A DNA stretch of 64,000 nucleotides, taken from assembly GCF_014466955.1 (NCBI RefSeq), contig NZ_AP023396.1:4216001-4280000 (forward strand), given 5' to 3'. The translations under genes and the position numbers were made by a program. This document shows, in pieces, positions 18,420-25,375 of the stretch. Every line of letters starts with the position of its first letter. Position 1 is the first letter of the stretch. The notes under the pieces are model-generated. The model saw only the letters and a program-made list of their open reading frames with translations, searched no databases and was not told where the DNA came from. This DNA is from Nocardia wallacei. GTDB taxonomy: Bacteria > Actinomycetota > Actinomycetes > Mycobacteriales > Mycobacteriaceae.

Positions 18420-19199
18420 CTATGCGGAGTCCGCTGCCTTCTCGTCGATCCACTCGTTGATCATCCAGGCGTTCACCACGGCGGGCAGGACGAAGAACGC
18501 GATGAGGTTGCCGCCCATGCAGATCACGCCGTCCACCGCGTTGAACGGTCCGGTCAGCACGAAGAATCCGGTGGCCAGCGACAGATTCAGCACCAGGCAC
18601 ACCAGCACGGTGGCGGTCAGCCAGCCCGGAAACAGCCCGGCGCCCTTGGCGATCGCGTACATCGCCCACAGGTAGGGCACGCCGAGCAGGCCCAGCGGCG
18701 CGGCCGTCACCAGCACCGCCACATGCAGCGCGGCGAGCACCTCGTCGGAGACCTCGTCACTGAGCAGCGGCAAGGCCGCGAAAAGCCCGACCATGACGGC
18801 GAATACGGCGTAGAAGATGGTCTCGGTGGTCCACAGCAGCCGGCTCAGATACCGGCGCGGGCTGGTGTCGGCCTCGACCAGGCGACTGGTGAGGACGGCC
18901 GAGAACCACACCACGTACACCATGGCGCAGGCGGCGACGAAGGCCGCGGCACGCAACAGCGGGTTGTAGTCGTCGAAGAACTCCCCCACCTCGCCCGGCT
19001 CGGTGCCCCGCGGCATCCGGACGACGATGACTACGAGCCCGATCACGCTGAGCGAGAAGGCAATAGCCCAGGCCACCGCGTACACGAGGCGATGAACGGT
19101 CCGCGCTCCCCACCGCGATACCGCGGTGCGAGCGAGCCGCCCCATCGTCTCGGTGCCGGGCAGTACGGGCGCGGCGCCGATGAATTGTGCTGAGCCCAT
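18420..19199 (-). CDS. Polytopic membrane protein of unknown function
   Basis: 259 residues with about six hydrophobic segments (approximately 38-60, 84-104, 126-146, 155-178, 190-212 and 215-240). A DDYNP motif follows helix 1 and the C terminus is acidic (NEWIDEKAADSA). No recognised family. It is divergent from the Hsp70-like operon that begins at 19.3-19.4 kb, with an intergenic region that contains a direct repeat, so a regulatory or functional link is possible. Confidence 0.75.
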   Translation of the reverse strand: MGSAQFIGAAPVLPGTETMGRLARTAVSRWGARTVHRLVYAVAWAIAFSLSVIGLVVIVVRMPRGTEPGEVGEFFDDYNPLLRAAAFVAACAMVYVVWFSAVLTSRLVEADTSPRRYLSRLLWTTETIFYAVFAVMVGLFAALPLLSDEVSDEVLAALHVAVLVTAAPLGLLGVPYLWAMYAIAKGAGLFPGWLTATVLVCLVLNLSLATGFFVLTGPFNAVDGVICMGGNLIAFFVLPAVVNAWMINEWIDEKAADSA

Positions 19200-19237: not shown

Positions 19238-19257
19238 ACTGGTACGGACTGGTACCG
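19238..19257. promoter_or_regulatory. Tandem 10-bp direct repeat between divergent promoters
   Basis: ACTGGTACGG at 19238-19247 is followed immediately by ACTGGTACCG at 19248-19257. A 10-bp period puts both copies on the same DNA face, as expected for two adjacent protein-binding half sites. It sits 39 bases upstream of the membrane protein start and upstream of the Hsp70-like operon. Confidence 0.35.
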
Positions 19258-19421
19258 ATGAAAGATGAGAATAGGCCGCACACTCGTCCCGGTCAATGGA
19301 CGCTCCGGCCACCGGGCACTACTACCGCGGCACGGCGCTCCGGGACCGGTCCCGGGCGTGCGCGCTTACCGTCGCCTATCGGTTGGCGCAGGCAGGTGCG
19401 AGTCCGGGCGAGGAGAGCGGT

Positions 19422-21494
19422 GTGGATGCGGCGGTGGCCCGATTGCGGGAGGTCTCCGGGCGGGATCTGTATCGGCACAACGCTTTCCGCGTGACCGGGA
19501 TCGCGACCGACGCCGACCGGGCGACGGTGCGGCAGCGGCGGCAGCTGGTGGTCGCGGCCGTCGCCGCCGGAGCCGATATCGACCTCGGACACGGCCGGGC
19601 GGTCACCGAATCACAGGTGCGCATGGCGTTCGATGTGCTGCTGGGCGATCCGCGGCGGCGGCTCGCCGACGAGGTGTTCTGGCTGTGGGGTCGTTCGGTC
19701 GCACGCTGCGGCTGTGCCCCGCGAGTGCACCACGATCACGATGCCGCGGTGCGCGCGCACAGCGCCGCGCTGGACGCGGAGGACGACCCGGACGCACCCG
19801 CGGCGCGAGTGGCCGAATTGTGGGCGCGCGCGGGGCGGCACTGGCGGCTGACGTTGCGGCGCACCGATTTCTGGGACCATCTCCGGCATCGCGTCGGTTC
19901 CCTGAACGACCGCGCGCTGGATCTCTCGACGGTCGAGGCGATCCGCGGCGCGGTCCCGGCAACCCTGGTGAAACCCCTTGTCGAATTGGCGATGTCGCTT
20001 CCGGACCCGGCCCGGCCGATCGGTATCGCCCGGAAGTGGCCGGTGCCCGAGCCGGTCGTGGACGATCTACTCGAGCAGGCGGCCGAGCCGCTGTGCGGGC
20101 GGCTCGACACGATGCTCGACGAGGCGTTCGACCTGCTGCGGAACAACGAATTCGTCGGCGCGGCAACATGTGCCGAGCAGCTGCTGCCGGATCTGCGGCG
20201 CTTGCGATCCGTGCTGCCCGCGCAGCGGTTCCGCCGCACGAGCACCCTGTGTGATCAGACGGCCGTCGTGTTGAACAACTGCGCCCTGGCGGTGGCCGAC
20301 CGGGCGGACGAGGCGCAGCTCGACCGGGCGGATGGCTGGCTGCTGAGCGCCCTGGAACTGGCGGTCGACGCCGAGACCACGACCGCGATCTCGGCGAACC
20401 GCACCGTCCTGAGCGCGGCGCGCGAGCGTGCCGAACGGCGACGGCACGACGAGCGGCGGCGCGCCGAGCGACGAGAGCGGGAACGGCGGCAGTGGCAGGA
20501 GATCGAACAGGAACGGCAGCGGCGGCGGGAACGGCGCGCCCGGCAGCGGCGGACCGTAATCGCCACGCTCGCCGCGACTCTCGCGCGCAGTCGCGCGAAC
20601 CTGTATCTACTGTCCTTCGCGGCGATGGGGACGCGCCGCACGCTGGTCACGGTGGCCGCGGGCGCGCTGTTCATGCTCGGTGTGGTGGGGCTGGCGGTGT
20701 GGCAGACCGCGAGCGCGCAGGAGACGGCCATGGTGTGGGCGGCGCGGGTGTCTGCCAATGCCCCGGTGGGCCGGTGCATCGGGCAGGAGTCGGACTGGTC
20801 GGCGACCACCACGGTGCGCCTCACCGACTGCGACCGTCCGCACTGGGGCGAGATACTCGGCTATCCGCGGCTGGCGCCGTCGCCGTCACCGTACCCGGGC
20901 GACGACCAAGTGGTCGCCCTGGCGCGATTCCGGTGCGGGCTGCAATTGTCGAGCCAGGGCCTGTCCCCCGCGATCTTCGAGAGTTCCCGCATCGACCCGG
21001 ACGCGCGGGTGTGGAACACCGGCGACACGCGGTTCGAGAACTACGCGACCTGCGTGGTGCACCGCCGCGACGGCGCGCCGATTTCCGGTGGGCCGCTGGT
21101 GGATCCGGAGCGGCAGCTACCTCCTTCGCTGCGGATGAGCCTGTACACCGACGCGATCGCCACGAATCCACCGGTGGGCAGCTGCGTCGCCGAGGAACGA
21201 GAATTCACCGCCTCGGTGAAGGACGTCACGATGGTGGATTGCGAGGTCCCGCACTGGGCCGAGGTGGTCGGCTACCCGGTGCTGTACGAGCCGGGCACGC
21301 CGTGGCCCGGAGACGCCGCGACGCAGGAAACGGCGAAATCGGCGTGCCTGCGCCTCGCGGCGCTGCCGAAGGATTTCCGATTGCAAGTCGTCGCGCCCGC
21401 GGGCGACTGGTGGAACCTGTCCGGCACGCGCAAGTACGCCACCTGCCTGGCACAACGCATCGACGGGCGGAAGTTCGACGGAGGCGTGCGATGA
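19422..21494 (+). CDS. J-like/transmembrane protein with two tandem septum-formation-like external domains
   Basis: 690 residues from GTG 19422, which follows GAGGAG by 6 bases; an in-frame ATG at 19296 would add 42 residues. Residues about 11-93 resemble an actinobacterial J-domain-like module (RDLYRHNAFRVTG ... AFDVLLGDPRRRLADEVFWL), but the HPD tripeptide needed to stimulate Hsp70 is replaced by Gly-Ala-Asp. A helical region follows, then a highly charged Arg/Glu coiled coil (about 332-376), one TM helix (about 408-428), and two external repeats (about 447-548 and 583-678). Each repeat has four matching cysteines and a DCxxPHWxExxGYP motif like Septum_form domains. First gene of a four-gene operon; ATGA overlap with the next. 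Confidence 0.8.
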   Translation: MDAAVARLREVSGRDLYRHNAFRVTGIATDADRATVRQRRQLVVAAVAAGADIDLGHGRAVTESQVRMAFDVLLGDPRRRLADEVFWLWGRSVARCGCAPRVHHDHDAAVRAHSAALDAEDDPDAPAARVAELWARAGRHWRLTLRRTDFWDHLRHRVGSLNDRALDLSTVEAIRGAVPATLVKPLVELAMSLPDPARPIGIARKWPVPEPVVDDLLEQAAEPLCGRLDTMLDEAFDLLRNNEFVGAATCAEQLLPDLRRLRSVLPAQRFRRTSTLCDQTAVVLNNCALAVADRADEAQLDRADGWLLSALELAVDAETTTAISANRTVLSAARERAERRRHDERRRAERRERERRQWQEIEQERQRRRERRARQRRTVIATLAATLARSRANLYLLSFAAMGTRRTLVTVAAGALFMLGVVGLAVWQTASAQETAMVWAARVSANAPVGRCIGQESDWSATTTVRLTDCDRPHWGEILGYPRLAPSPSPYPGDDQVVALARFRCGLQLSSQGLSPAIFESSRIDPDARVWNTGDTRFENYATCVVHRRDGAPISGGPLVDPERQLPPSLRMSLYTDAIATNPPVGSCVAEEREFTASVKDVTMVDCEVPHWAEVVGYPVLYEPGTPWPGDAATQETAKSACLRLAALPKDFRLQVVAPAGDWWNLSGTRKYATCLAQRIDGRKFDGGVR

Positions 21495-22015
21495 GCAGAA
21501 TCGGACGGGAATTGCGCCAGCGGAGGTACCACCGCGCCTTCCGCATCGCGCCACCGGACTGGGACGAGCGCGGCCGTCGGCAACTACAGCAGCTGCTGTC
21601 CGAATTCCCCTGCGCCGACGATAATTCCGATTCGCCCCCACCGCTCGACGAGCACGCCCTCGCCGAGGCCGCGACCAGCCTGTGGCGGGCAGAACGCAAA
21701 CTGCGGTCCGACAGCGGGGATCCCGCCGCCCGCGCTCGGCAGGCGCGCCGCTATCTGGACCGCACCCGGCAGGCACTGACCGGCGCCGGACTGGTCGTCC
21801 ACGATCACGACGGCGACGCGTTCCACCCCGGCCGTTCCCTGGACGTGCTCGCGTTCCAGGACGATCCGGCGCTCACGGCCGAAACAGTGATCCAAACCGT
21901 CCGTCCCACAGTCTATTTCCGCGACCGGCGCATCCAAACCGGGCAGGTGATCGTCGGCTGCCCGGCCGAGGACGGTTCCGGCGCGGCCGAGCACGATGGA
22001 GGAAACCGTGAGTGA
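21491..22015 (+). CDS. GrpE-like nucleotide-exchange protein
   Basis: 174 residues. The first 110 are charged and helical with an RQARRYLDRTRQAL segment; the C-terminal part follows the GrpE beta-domain pattern: GLVVHDHDGDAFHPGRSLDV, then ETVIQTVRPTVYFRDRRIQT and GQVIVG, matching the GrpE order 'G.....G..FDP..H.A....... .T V.....GY...R.LRPA.V.V'. GrpE releases ADP from Hsp70. It starts within the stop codon of the J-like gene and its stop overlaps the Hsp70 start by 8 bases, so translation of the three is coupled. Classification rests on this C-terminal match and on context. Confidence 0.68.
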   Translation: MSRIGRELRQRRYHRAFRIAPPDWDERGRRQLQQLLSEFPCADDNSDSPPPLDEHALAEAATSLWRAERKLRSDSGDPAARARQARRYLDRTRQALTGAGLVVHDHDGDAFHPGRSLDVLAFQDDPALTAETVIQTVRPTVYFRDRRIQTGQVIVGCPAEDGSGAAEHDGGNRE

Positions 22016-24506
22016 GCCCGCACCGAACAGCGACACCATCGACGTGGGGATCGACCTCGGCACCACCAACAGCGCCGTCGCGGTCGCCGCGGACGGTGAC
22101 GCGGCCGTGGTCAAGAACAACGAGAACGTCGAGATCACCCCGTCGGCGGTGTGGATTCCGCGCCGCGATCTGGTGTACGTCGGCGACCGAGCGCGCAAAC
22201 GCGCCGAATCCGACCCGCGGAACACGGCATCGGAATTCAAACAGATGATGGGTTACGACGGCGCCGCCTGGCACTTCACCAAGGCAGGCATCTCGCTGAC
22301 ACCGCAGCAGCTGTCGGCGGAGATCCTGAAAACCTTGCGCCAGAACGTCGCTCGCGCGCGGGGCGAGGCGCCCGATGTCGCGGTGATCACGGTCCCGGCG
22401 GCGTTCGCGCTCAACCAGCGCAACGCCACCCTGCACGCGGCCGAACTCGCCGGCCTGGGCCGGGACTGCCCGCTGATCCAGGAACCGACGGCCGCCGCGT
22501 TCGCCTACGCCCTGCACGAGGGCACCGGCCGCGGGTACTGGCTGGTCTTCGACTTCGGCGGCGGCACCTTCGACGCCGCGGTGGTGGATCGCGGCGACGA
22601 CGAACTGCGGGTTCTGACCCACGCCGGCGACCGGAGCCTGGGCGGCAAGGACATCGACTGGGCGCTGGTCGAGCACGTCCTCGCCCCGGCCGTGGCGCGG
22701 CAGTTCGGGTTCGATGATTTCGACCGCGGCAATCGCCGCTTCAGCGGCGTCTTCGGCAGCCTGAAGGCCCTCGCCGAGCAGGCGAAAATCGACCTCTCCC
22801 AGCACGATTCGACCGATCTGCTGGCCGAGCTCAATGTCGACGGCCGCCTCGACGGCCGCGAGGAGATGCTCGAGCTCACCGTGCGCCGCGAGGAACTCGA
22901 CGCGCTCGCCGAGCCCTTCTACACTCGCGCGATCAATCTCGCGCGCACCGCGATCTCCGAGGCCGCCCTCACCGCGGGACGGATCGACCGGGTGTTGCTG
23001 GTCGGCGGCACCACGCTGGCTCCCGGGCTGCGGGAGCGGCTGGCCGACCCGCGGCACGGGCTCGGCATCGCACTCGACTTCAGCGCCGACCCGACCACCG
23101 TGGTGGCGCGGGGCGCCGCCCTGTTCGCCGCCACCGTCCGCCGTCCCCGCCGGGCAGCGCACACGGCGCGCGCGAACGGCTTCGCGCTCGAGCTGACCCA
23201 CGAACCGTCGGTGACCACCACCACCGCCGTGGTCGCCGGGCGGGTGCGGGGCACGGCGGCGGGCGGCTGGCCCGATTATTCGGTGACACTGAGCAATCCG
23301 GAATCGGCGGTGCCGTTCCGGTCGGCGCGCATCCCGCTCAACGGCAACGGCGCCTTCAGCACGATGGTCGACCTCGATGCCCACCGGACCTCGCGGTTCC
23401 GGGTCGAACTCACCGACGCCGCCGGCACGCCCTGCGCGCTCGAACCGGACACCTTCACGCTGACCCATCGGGCCGGTCCCGAGCTCGGCGGCGTCCGGCT
23501 CGCCGATTCGCTGGGTGTGCAACGCGCCGACGAGGGGTTCACGGTGCTGTTGCGCAAGGGCGCGACGCTGCCCGCCACCGTGCACAAGCAGTTCAAGACC
23601 TCCGACGCCCTGCGGCGTGCGGACCTCGACAGCGTCTTGCGCATCCCGATCGCCGAGGGCGAGCGCAGCCGGGGCGAACGCAACCGGCGGGTGGGAATGC
23701 TCGAGATCAGGTCCGCCGACATCCACGTCGACCTGCCCGCCGGCAGCGACGTGGACGTCACCTTCGAAGTCGACACGTCGGGCATGGTCACCGCGGTGGC
23801 CGACCTGCCGGGCGCCGACATCCAGACCGAGGCGGTCATCGATCTCACCGCCCTCGCCCCGCCCACGCACCGGGATCTGGCCGCCCAACTCCGCGAGGCC
23901 GAACAGCGACTGTCGCTGCTGCCCGACCACTCCCGGATGCCGGCGCGGGCCGCCCGGGTGCGCGGCCGGATCGACGAGGAGGACACGGTCGCCTCCGCGC
24001 GCGAGAAGGTCGATGCCGCCGCGGCCGATCCCGCCGCCGCGGTCGCCGCCGAGGACCGGCTCCGGGATCTGCACGCCGCCCTCGACGACATCACCGACGC
24101 CCTCGCGGTCCCCGAACTCGTCCGCGACCTGGAATCCACCCTCGCCGAGATCTCGACGCTGGTCGACCAGACGGGCGACGCCGAGGATCGCCGCAGCTGT
24201 GCCGAACTGCGGGCGCGGGCCGACGAGGCCGTACGGGCACACGATCCGGTCGCCCTGCGCCGCCAGCTCGACCGCGCCACGGAACTGCATATCGACCTGC
24301 TGCGCCGCCGACCCGAATTCCCCCTGCTGGTGTTTCACGCGCTGCAGAGCCAGCTCCAGGCGACGCCCGCCGCCGGGCCACTGCTGCGCGAGGGCGGGCG
24401 GGCCGCGGATCGCGGGGACATGCGGGCCCTGATCTCGGTGAACCATCGCCTGCGCGCGCTGTTGCCCGCGGACATCCGCACCAGTTCGATCGGAATTGTC
24501 GAATGA
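22008..24506 (+). CDS. Hsp70-family chaperone with an inserted beta-rich domain
   Basis: 832 residues. The ATPase domain is complete: IDVGIDLGTTNSAVAV (11-26), IQEPTAAAFAYAL, the phosphate-2 loop VFDFGGGTFDAAVVD (180-194) and adenosine motif RVLLVGGTTLAPGL (328-341). Instead of the usual DVLLLDV linker, an extra beta-rich stretch follows (about 394-490, VVAGRVRGTAAGGWPDYSV onward). Then comes an SBD-beta-like region (about 495-600: FTVLLRKGATLPATVHKQF, DVDVTFEVDTSGMV) and a long helical C terminus. GTG 22008 is chosen because GGAGG just upstream is a good ribosome site; ATG 21996 would overlap that site. It is clearly distinct from housekeeping DnaK. Start overlaps the GrpE-like gene; the next gene begins in its stop. 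Confidence 0.9.
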   Translation: MSEPAPNSDTIDVGIDLGTTNSAVAVAADGDAAVVKNNENVEITPSAVWIPRRDLVYVGDRARKRAESDPRNTASEFKQMMGYDGAAWHFTKAGISLTPQQLSAEILKTLRQNVARARGEAPDVAVITVPAAFALNQRNATLHAAELAGLGRDCPLIQEPTAAAFAYALHEGTGRGYWLVFDFGGGTFDAAVVDRGDDELRVLTHAGDRSLGGKDIDWALVEHVLAPAVARQFGFDDFDRGNRRFSGVFGSLKALAEQAKIDLSQHDSTDLLAELNVDGRLDGREEMLELTVRREELDALAEPFYTRAINLARTAISEAALTAGRIDRVLLVGGTTLAPGLRERLADPRHGLGIALDFSADPTTVVARGAALFAATVRRPRRAAHTARANGFALELTHEPSVTTTTAVVAGRVRGTAAGGWPDYSVTLSNPESAVPFRSARIPLNGNGAFSTMVDLDAHRTSRFRVELTDAAGTPCALEPDTFTLTHRAGPELGGVRLADSLGVQRADEGFTVLLRKGATLPATVHKQFKTSDALRRADLDSVLRIPIAEGERSRGERNRRVGMLEIRSADIHVDLPAGSDVDVTFEVDTSGMVTAVADLPGADIQTEAVIDLTALAPPTHRDLAAQLREAEQRLSLLPDHSRMPARAARVRGRIDEEDTVASAREKVDAAAADPAAAVAAEDRLRDLHAALDDITDALAVPELVRDLESTLAEISTLVDQTGDAEDRRSCAELRARADEAVRAHDPVALRRQLDRATELHIDLLRRRPEFPLLVFHALQSQLQATPAAGPLLREGGRAADRGDMRALISVNHRLRALLPADIRTSSIGIVE

Positions 24507-25375
24507 CGTCGGCCGATGCCACCGTGGCCCGGCGGCTGGCGGTCGCCCGAGCCGCCGATGCCGCCCGCGCGGGGCGTCTCGACGCTGCCGCACGACTGCT
24601 CGACGATCTCGGCGACGCCGCGGGTGACGTTGCCGTGCTCGACCTGCGGGCCCGCGTCCACGCCCAGAACGGCGACCTCGCGGCGGCCGACCGGTGCTGG
24701 GCCCGCGTCCTGGCTGCGGCGCCCGAGTACGAGCCCGCGCACATCGGTCGCGCGGTCATCGCCCGAATCGATCAGGGCCGCACGCCGATCCGACCGCGGC
24801 TGCGACCACACCCGGTCATCGCCGGGGTCGTGGCGGTCGCGGTGGTCACCGCGGCCGGCGGGTGGTTTCTGGCCGAGACGCGGTCGGATGTCCGCGCGGT
24901 GTCCGTCGCACCGGAATCGAGAACTCCCGCGCCGCAACGGCAATCGGACGCTCCGATCACCGACGACGTGGACCGCGATCTCGACGCGATCGCCGCGGCG
25001 GCCTCCGTGCCCGGCGCGACGGCCGCCCGCCGCGCCGACCGGGTCGAGGTCGTCCTCGACGCCGGAGCCTTCGAGTCCGGGACCGAGATCACCACCGCCG
25101 CGGCGGATCTGCTCACCGAAATCGGTGCGCGCACAGCGGCATTGCCGGTGTCGGCCACGGTGGTCGGGCACACGGTCGCCGTCGCGGGCGGCCCGCAGAC
25201 CGGCGGCTCCACCGTCGGATGGCAACGCGCCGCCGTCGCCGCGGCCTACCTCGCCGCGGGCAGCGGACGCCCCTTCACCGCGTTCACCCTCGCCTGCGCC
25301 GACCAGCGCGACGCCCCGCATCCCGAGCCCGCGCGCAACCGCACCGTCACCGTGCAGCTGCGGCCGGAATCGTGA
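24503..25375 (+). CDS. TPR-transmembrane-OmpA-like protein
   Basis: 290 residues. The N-terminal cytosolic part (about 5-90) has two or more TPR-like helix pairs (AARAGRLDAAARLLDDLG, HAQNGDLAAADRCWARVLAA). A TM helix follows (about 102-124, PVIAGVVAVAVVTAAGGWFL), then an external domain. Its end (GWQRAAVAAAYLAAGSG ... PEPARNRTVTVQL) matches OmpA-like peptidoglycan-associated domains, which end with ARNRRVEI. The gene starts in the Hsp70 stop codon (ATGA), so it is the fourth member of the operon. The TPR part could bind the chaperone while the outer part contacts the wall; that is inference. Confidence 0.75.
   Translation: MTSADATVARRLAVARAADAARAGRLDAAARLLDDLGDAAGDVAVLDLRARVHAQNGDLAAADRCWARVLAAAPEYEPAHIGRAVIARIDQGRTPIRPRLRPHPVIAGVVAVAVVTAAGGWFLAETRSDVRAVSVAPESRTPAPQRQSDAPITDDVDRDLDAIAAAASVPGATAARRADRVEVVLDAGAFESGTEITTAAADLLTEIGARTAALPVSATVVGHTVAVAGGPQTGGSTVGWQRAAVAAAYLAAGSGRPFTAFTLACADQRDAPHPEPARNRTVTVQLRPES

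Follow-up and report, generated by a model that had tools for sequence, protein, structure and literature searches.

A membrane-linked four-gene Hsp70 module in Nocardia wallacei that lacks the HPD motif and its partner arginine

How might an Hsp70 be triggered when neither its J-like partner nor the Hsp70 itself carries the residues of the classical contact between them? This question is raised by four genes in tandem on the forward strand of a 64,000-nucleotide stretch of the Nocardia wallacei genome (NCBI RefSeq assembly GCF_014466955.1, contig NZ_AP023396.1, positions 4,216,001 to 4,280,000), referred to here as the window. The genes encode a J-like membrane protein, a GrpE-like protein (G), an Hsp70-family protein (H) and a TPR/OmpA-like protein (T). 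They form a conserved module, in which the J-like protein and T each have one predicted membrane helix together with predicted extracytoplasmic domains. A first-pass annotation, made from the letters of the window alone, had described a membrane-linked chaperone module at this site; its observation was right and its interpretation is partly supported. The more interesting point lies outside that annotation, namely the matched loss of HPD and of its arginine, with an inserted domain in H. A kinase and FHA extension of the module in relatives goes beyond it as well. The four genes, in window coordinates, are:

19422..21494, + strand, J-like membrane protein, 690 amino acids from GTG 19422 (a 732-amino-acid open reading frame, ORF, opens at ATG 19296)
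21491..22015, + strand, GrpE-like protein G, 174 amino acids from ATG 21491, with a helical hairpin at residues 54-98 and a beta wing at 101-157
22008..24506, + strand, Hsp70-family protein H, 832 amino acids from GTG 22008 (836 from ATG 21996)
24503..25375, + strand, TPR, transmembrane and OmpA-like protein T, 290 amino acids from ATG 24503

The two sides of the HPD contact

Relatives of the module were collected by a scan with G, which gave 51 loci, and 11 loci from further genomes of the same genus were added. The resulting 62 loci come from 15 named actinobacterial genera and from Edaphobacter, and because all were found through G, the locus counts given here are conditional on G. A length filter dropped nine of the 62 J-like proteins (eight longer than 800 amino acids and one fragment) and five of 61 Hsp70 proteins (fragments or cut genes), which left 54 J-like and 57 Hsp70 rows with the window included. 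Alignments were made of 42 of the 52 J pieces, 44 of the 54 J proteins, 44 of the 57 Hsp70 proteins and 27 of the 57 inserts, as well as of the window T with 33 out of 35 relatives, one of which has a longer start, of 24 of 30 canonical GrpE loci, and of P0001 with 40 of 120 listed relatives. The regions that bear on the contact are:

19464..19685, + strand, J-like domain, approximately residues 57-130 of the 732-amino-acid ORF, without HPD
22470..22481, + strand, site equivalent to E. coli DnaK R167-N170, with P159 and Q162 of the 836-amino-acid ORF
23151..23507, + strand, insert of about 118 amino acids between the nucleotide-binding domain (NBD) and the beta part of the substrate-binding domain (SBD-beta), placed by alignments where the VLLLD linker is expected
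23508..23813, + strand, SBD-beta-like region, 27% identical to residues 372-466 of the genome's own DnaK
23814..24503, + strand, C-terminal region, a lid by position, with a weak HSP70 profile match as far as 24158 and position only for the remainder (alignment A4)

The N terminus of the J-like protein resembles a J-domain in its profile and in its predicted helices. Profile A2, built from 42 N-terminal sequences, matches 29 chains in the PDB at E<=10, and 24 of these are named DnaJ or Hsp40. The best match is 1bqz (E=8.9e-4, 22.8 bits), which we take to be E. coli DnaJ, and three more of the matched chains, HCG3, mL77 and SIS1, are presumably J-proteins as well. A J-domain profile is thus recognised, with weak bit scores, and the helices at residues 63-67, 75-90, 105-116 and 119-127 of the predicted model fit a J-domain. 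Pfam DnaJ finds no match in the window J-like protein.

HPD is present in both canonical DnaJ proteins of the same genome and in none of 52 J-like domains (0/52), as judged from the first 200 residues of the 54 aligned rows, two of which, from L027 and L059, are without the domain. A repeat look over the 62 called J-like genes also found no HPD, with seven of the genes unmatched by the domain pattern used; the eight long J-like proteins entered the HPD check only through this pattern look, which matched seven of them. The J-like N terminus proposed in the first-pass annotation is therefore upheld by the profile but not by the HPD motif or by Pfam DnaJ. The missing motif argues that the J-like protein is not an ordinary J-domain cofactor.

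H is a member of the Hsp70 superfamily by profile (Pfam HSP70, 1.1e-73) and by its ATP-site motifs, in agreement with the Hsp70 ATPase that had been read in the third product. Its NBD is 33.9% identical to that of the genome's own DnaK. GIDLGTTNS is kept in all of the rows that cover it (54 of 57, with one I->V), and the K70 and DxGGGTFD columns are kept in 57. The contact site is different. In DnaK, R167 is the residue touched by the HPD aspartate, as described in passages of PMC7289447 and PMC8215388. With the E. coli numbering mapped from the NEPTA motif, R167->P and N170->Q are found in 57/57 family Hsp70s, whereas a canonical DnaK control from the same class has R and N in 29 of the 29 loci, among 30, with a readable motif. 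The P and Q of H match the loss of HPD in the J-like protein, such that two sides of one contact are lost. As read from the aligned sequences, neither partner retains its side of the classical J trigger.

The insert is the other family-wide departure. A VLLLD-like string occurs in 0/57 family Hsp70s, and VLLLDVTPL in 26 of the 30 canonical loci. Beyond the insert, positions 393-588 of the HSP70 profile match 23508-24158 weakly (E=1.5e-6). A special loss of the SBD residue D481 was dropped as an argument, because the genome's own DnaK already carries Asn there.

Membrane parts, the GrpE-like protein and gene boundaries

Hydropathy predicts a single transmembrane segment each in the J-like protein (at about residue 450) and in T (at about residue 105), and none in G or H. 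Transmembrane helices with external domains in the first and fourth products, as first annotated, are thus predicted by hydropathy, Pfam and profiles. Apart from its J-like domain, the J-like protein has the following features:

19707..19760, + strand, CxC....HxxHD......H motif, residues 138-155, directly after the J-like domain
20643..20699, + strand, transmembrane segment, approximately residues 450-468 by hydropathy, within a model helix at 447-471
20724..21491, + strand, extracytoplasmic tandem repeat of two Septum_form-like copies of about 128 amino acids each

The columns of the CxC/HxxHD motif are nearly invariant in alignments A2 and A3, with CxC missing in L067-L069 and L074, and the motif is a possible metal site. 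Pfam Septum_form matches over two stretches (6.1e-10), and the two copies are 36% identical to one another (E=1e-23). No mention of PF13845 was found in the literature searched. The coupling to division suggested at first pass is not upheld, since it goes back only to the Pfam name Septum_form.

A comparison of profile A5 of T with the PDB returned TPR proteins and OmpA-like domains, including 6jfw (2.5e-6), MotS, PomB and MotB, and TssL (4.2e-4); a further match of T to TssL is weak (E=0.014). T thus has an OmpA-like domain by profile, putative as to peptidoglycan binding. Pfam OmpA matches the T relative of L074 (6.2e-8), with no match in the window T or in that of L067.

By its predicted model and Foldseek, G has the GrpE fold of helices and beta wing, and a profile comparison (hhalign) of G with canonical GrpE gives a match, with unrelated controls at 0.2% and 0.6%. 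In the VIA list for the model, residues 1-51 are barely tested. Pfam GrpE is without a match in the single window sequence, and the GrpE-like profile recovered no GrpE from the PDB. The earlier assignment of the second product as GrpE-like is accordingly sustained by fold and profile, and not by Pfam on the single sequence. The nearest named relative of G is from Nocardia thraciensis (74% identity).

The coordinates bear out the overlaps of 4, 8 and 4 bases between these same-strand genes. The J-like gene ends at 21494 and G starts at ATG 21491; G ends at 22015 and H starts at GTG 22008, which GGAGGA precedes; H ends at 24506 and T starts at ATG 24503. The alternative start of H at ATG 21996 would give an overlap of 20 bases with G. 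The module start at 19238 given in the first annotation fails, as that position is out of frame for the J-like gene and its frame stops after seven codons. The J-like ORF opens at ATG 19296; most tblastn matches to relatives start at residue 30 or later, the model has a pLDDT of 88.6 overall and below 50 for residues 1-42, and GTG 19422 is preceded by the ribosome-binding-like stretch GAGGAGAG. For these reasons the J-like protein probably starts at GTG 19422, with 690 amino acids, and the first 42 codons of the ORF from 19296 are probably untranslated.

Elsewhere in the host genome (7.9 Mb), one canonical GrpE, two DnaJ and one canonical DnaK were found. On the other side of the module, a minus-strand gene at 18420-19199 that diverges from it encodes a six-helix membrane protein by hydropathy, with no Pfam match. 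It was tried as a fifth part of the module and rejected, as tblastn found zero relatives of it in 62/62 loci.

Conservation and neighbourhood of the module

The order J-G-H on one strand is kept in 60 of the 62 loci; the exceptions are L061, on a contig that stops directly behind G, and L071, where G was found as a fragment only. Because of this order, the gene set is no chance juxtaposition, and the neighbourhood survey confirms the dedicated, co-occurring module that had been proposed. A homologue of the J-like protein is found in 61 loci and a relative of T in 46, with J-G-H-T all present in 45. The module is patchy in its distribution. Among 98 genomes of the genus it is found in 16 at E<=1e-3, 12 of these at E<=1e-15, and among 394 genomes of the class in at least 13 at E<=1e-8, the window's own being counted in both cases. 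A search of 396 genomes of the phylum with profile A1 gave the window's own copy only, among the 8 best candidates per genome.

The only gene families common to at least 10 of the 62 loci are J, H, G, the kinase, T and FHA, with smaller families left unannotated. A same-strand kinase relative lies within 5 kb in 32 loci, an FHA relative in 18, both in 16 and PP2C in four. The kinase count comes from tblastn at 1e-5 and includes L078, where no kinase was called in the operon; counted by clusters of called genes it is 30, a figure that misses Edaphobacter because the gene caller made no genes there. Seven of the kinases, and a sample of the FHA proteins, were checked by Pfam. The FHA count includes L071, where G is a fragment. 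Each of four actinobacterial FHA proteins scanned has a sub-threshold Trans_reg_C match. Family 81, which lies beside the kinase in L063, was considered as FHA and turned out to be an alginate lyase; for the protein of family 38 in L074, no FHA match was found. The operon of the window has no kinase, FHA or PP2C gene, and the window copy is a reduced form of the module.

Edaphobacter, of the Acidobacteriota, has the order kinase, receiver plus J-like, G, H and FHA, and its H has the same P and Q and the insert, as read by eye. A search with the Edaphobacter G returned 71 proteins. In this locus (L070:7589-9905), the J-like domain is joined to a receiver domain, in a gene that is apparently split into two frames.

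Other loci vary in the J-like gene. Eight loci of the same genus (L075-L082) have a longer J-like protein (867-1245 amino acids) and no T relative was found in them; in the two that were scanned, L076 and L078, the long protein has Sel1 repeats at its N terminus and CxxC pairs close to the transmembrane segments at its C-terminal end. Two diverged J-like genes stand in tandem in one operon at L026:6931-10004 and L052:6967-9959. A low-complexity stretch rich in Ala, Pro, Thr and Glu lies between the J-like gene and G at L072:9908-10505 and L073:7742-8442; that of L072 is a short repeat of regular pattern.

A possible mechanism, its rivals and known systems

We infer that the double loss of the HPD contact reflects a new trigger. 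The module would then be a client-specific Hsp70 machine for protein remodelling, anchored in the envelope, equipped with an exchange factor of its own and triggered independently of HPD; from sequences and predicted models, we give this reading about an even chance of being right. The J-like domain would keep the Hsp70 at the membrane next to its client, and the inserted domain and remodelled interface would substitute for the HPD-Arg switch. The GrpE-like protein, as a putative nucleotide exchange factor, would reset the Hsp70 cycle, while the OmpA-like and Septum_form-like domains may grip or read the cell wall. Such a machine could build or take apart a client complex bound to the membrane. 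Phosphorylation would probably gate it where kinase and FHA genes occur; the window copy has neither, and its trigger must therefore come from elsewhere.

Several observations weigh against this proposal. The J-like profile match is weak at 22.8 bits, and a single chain among the 29 reaches E<=1e-3; in a whole-protein Foldseek search, the J-like model had no match at this threshold and no evident J-domain among the best 50 rows, the best of which are mostly helical-repeat proteins. The hhalign match of G to GrpE is limited to its C-terminal wing, and the Foldseek matches of its model to GrpE have TM-scores of 0.35-0.45 and root-mean-square deviations of 7-13. The fold of the insert is unrecognised, with neither a Pfam match nor a relative in the PDB below E=0.1. 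Displacement or divergence of the linker inside the insert, and not its loss, may be the case, because automatic alignment pairs the DnaK linker with a string there that is conserved as (V/I)EL.D, with D kept in 52/57. T was not found in 16 of the 62 loci; four of these (L025, L027, L059 and L061) lie on contigs that run out at H or G or shortly afterwards, and in the other 12 T seems truly absent. As to phosphorylation, in 28 loci none of kinase, FHA and PP2C has a relative within 5 kb, and a nearby kinase match need not be a module member. HRDxK is found in 0/31 actinobacterial kinases examined, with T or S instead and DFG kept, which makes kinase activity uncertain.

Other explanations can be set against the remodelling machine. 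The module could be a biological-conflict system, anti-phage or thresholding, in which the chaperone restrains an effector until infection, akin to the HSP70/GrpE/DnaJ theme of GAP1-N2 systems. The patchy distribution (12/98 genus genomes at E<=1e-15, at least 13/394 class genomes at E<=1e-8) would suit this, as would the many hosts that are filamentous actinobacteria, a habit that we assume from the organism names. A similar parts list is also given in the relevant section of Kaur et al. 2020 (PMC7159879). We nevertheless consider it unlikely, given that 23 of 26 module genomes, that of the window included, have no GAP1-N2 and the other three carry it on contigs separate from the module, and that a PADLOC search of the locus for known defence families gave no match. 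The families shared by at least 10 loci are confined to the four module genes, the kinase and FHA, and variable effectors may lie among the smaller, unannotated families. A type VI-like secretion or assembly motor, in which H drives assembly or transport at a membrane complex under threonine phosphorylation, would account for the kinase and FHA genes, with PP2C in four loci, that adjoin the OmpA-like membrane protein in relatives, and for the weak TssL matches of T (E=0.014 and 4.2e-4). It is highly improbable, as no recurrent secretion part was seen among families in at least 10 loci, smaller families being unannotated, and the window operon is without kinase, FHA or PP2C.

Two further alternatives concern the Hsp70 cycle itself. 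The J-like protein might be a Pam16-like pseudo-J inhibitor or scaffold that represses H, with an HPD J-protein from elsewhere triggering the ATPase. The genome does have two canonical DnaJ proteins, and the mitochondrial import motor is regulated by Pam16/Magmas, a J-like protein of type IV that has no HPD and is unable to stimulate mtHsp70 (PMC8605242). The arginine on which an HPD would act is, however, missing from the H family in 57/57, and a pattern search among 924 genes called in related loci (none called in L070) found no canonical HPD J-domain, so that this explanation is quite unlikely. The retained ATP-site motifs and GrpE-like partner would also be expected of an ordinary DnaK paralogue operon for general membrane folding, with a degenerate yet canonical cycle. 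Against that stand the losses of HPD and R167, fixed across the family, the missing VLLLD string and the conserved insert; degeneration in one lineage is not the cause, because Edaphobacter carries the same residues. Such an operon is very unlikely here.

The reading as an HPD-independent, envelope-anchored machine can be taken one step further. We tentatively suggest, at somewhat less than even confidence, that the family is a distinct class of bacterial Hsp70 without the HPD-arginine switch, with an HPD-less membrane J-like protein, a proline-switch Hsp70 with an extra domain and a private GrpE, responsive to envelope signals and often to Ser/Thr phosphorylation, with an FHA protein as its reader. 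In PMC7289447, HPD together with its arginine partner counts as the key of the J-domain/Hsp70 partnership, and a family with both sides lost and the partner genes together in two phyla amounts to a natural double mutant. The module makes HPD-free triggering of an Hsp70 directly testable and suggests phosphorylation or the inserted domain as the replacement; if the proposal is true, the cell envelope has an Hsp70 machine with its own exchange factor.

No named system with exactly this gene set is known from the literature searched, as the first-pass annotation had stated. Judged from listings, a literature search on the gene combination gave PMC7159879 as the sole relevant work, and one for HPD-free or insert-bearing Hsp70 found nothing. 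The HSP70/GrpE/DnaJ theme of GAP1-N2 systems described there is the closest published set. HSP70 and GrpE with DnaJ-FNIII or TPR proteins are reported in the GAP1-N2 section of that paper for about 14% of GAP1-N2 neighbourhoods, and the theme resembles the present module in pairing HSP70 with a GrpE of its own and with a J-bearing protein or one with TPRs, in having parts linked to the membrane, and in its actinobacterial setting. A kinase and PP2C theme exists alongside it, as a separate and non-overlapping theme in the same section, whereas here kinase/FHA and Hsp70 stand in one operon. That section mentions neither HPD loss nor an Hsp70 insert. FNIII has no Pfam match in the window J-like protein and T, nor in eight J-like and three T relatives scanned. 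Membership in GAP1-N2 systems was rejected, as the window's genome has no GAP1-N2 and the three of 26 module genomes that have it carry it on other contigs; the theme may be a cousin of the module, but one of its defining features is missing here.

With canonical DnaK-DnaJ-GrpE the module shares the three-part logic, the Hsp70 ATP-site motifs and the GrpE fold, and it differs in its missing HPD, R167 and VLLLD string, its extra Hsp70 domain and its membrane-anchored J-like protein. HscC with DjlB/DjlC is likewise a specialised Hsp70 with membrane-anchored J-proteins encoded nearby, but it has 550-580 amino acids and is expected to be GrpE-independent (both from passages of PMC8215388), while the present family has about 800-850 amino acids and its own GrpE-like gene. 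The type VI threonine-phosphorylation pathway (PpkA, PppA, Fha and TssL), in which Fha binds phospho-TssL (PMC3953482, in part), resembles those relatives where kinase, phosphatase and FHA genes stand beside the OmpA-like membrane protein. It differs in that the same part of PMC3953482 has no Hsp70 and the window copy is without kinase and FHA; no recurrent type VI secretion gene turned up in the loci, although no search was aimed at such genes. The nearest functional analogy appears to be the mitochondrial PAM motor (mtHsp70, Pam18, Pam16 and Mge1), which also combines an Hsp70 and a GrpE homologue with J-type proteins at the membrane, one of which has no HPD. No HPD J gene was found among the 924 genes called in the present loci, whereas the PAM motor also has Pam18, a J-protein that stimulates mtHsp70 (PMC8605242).

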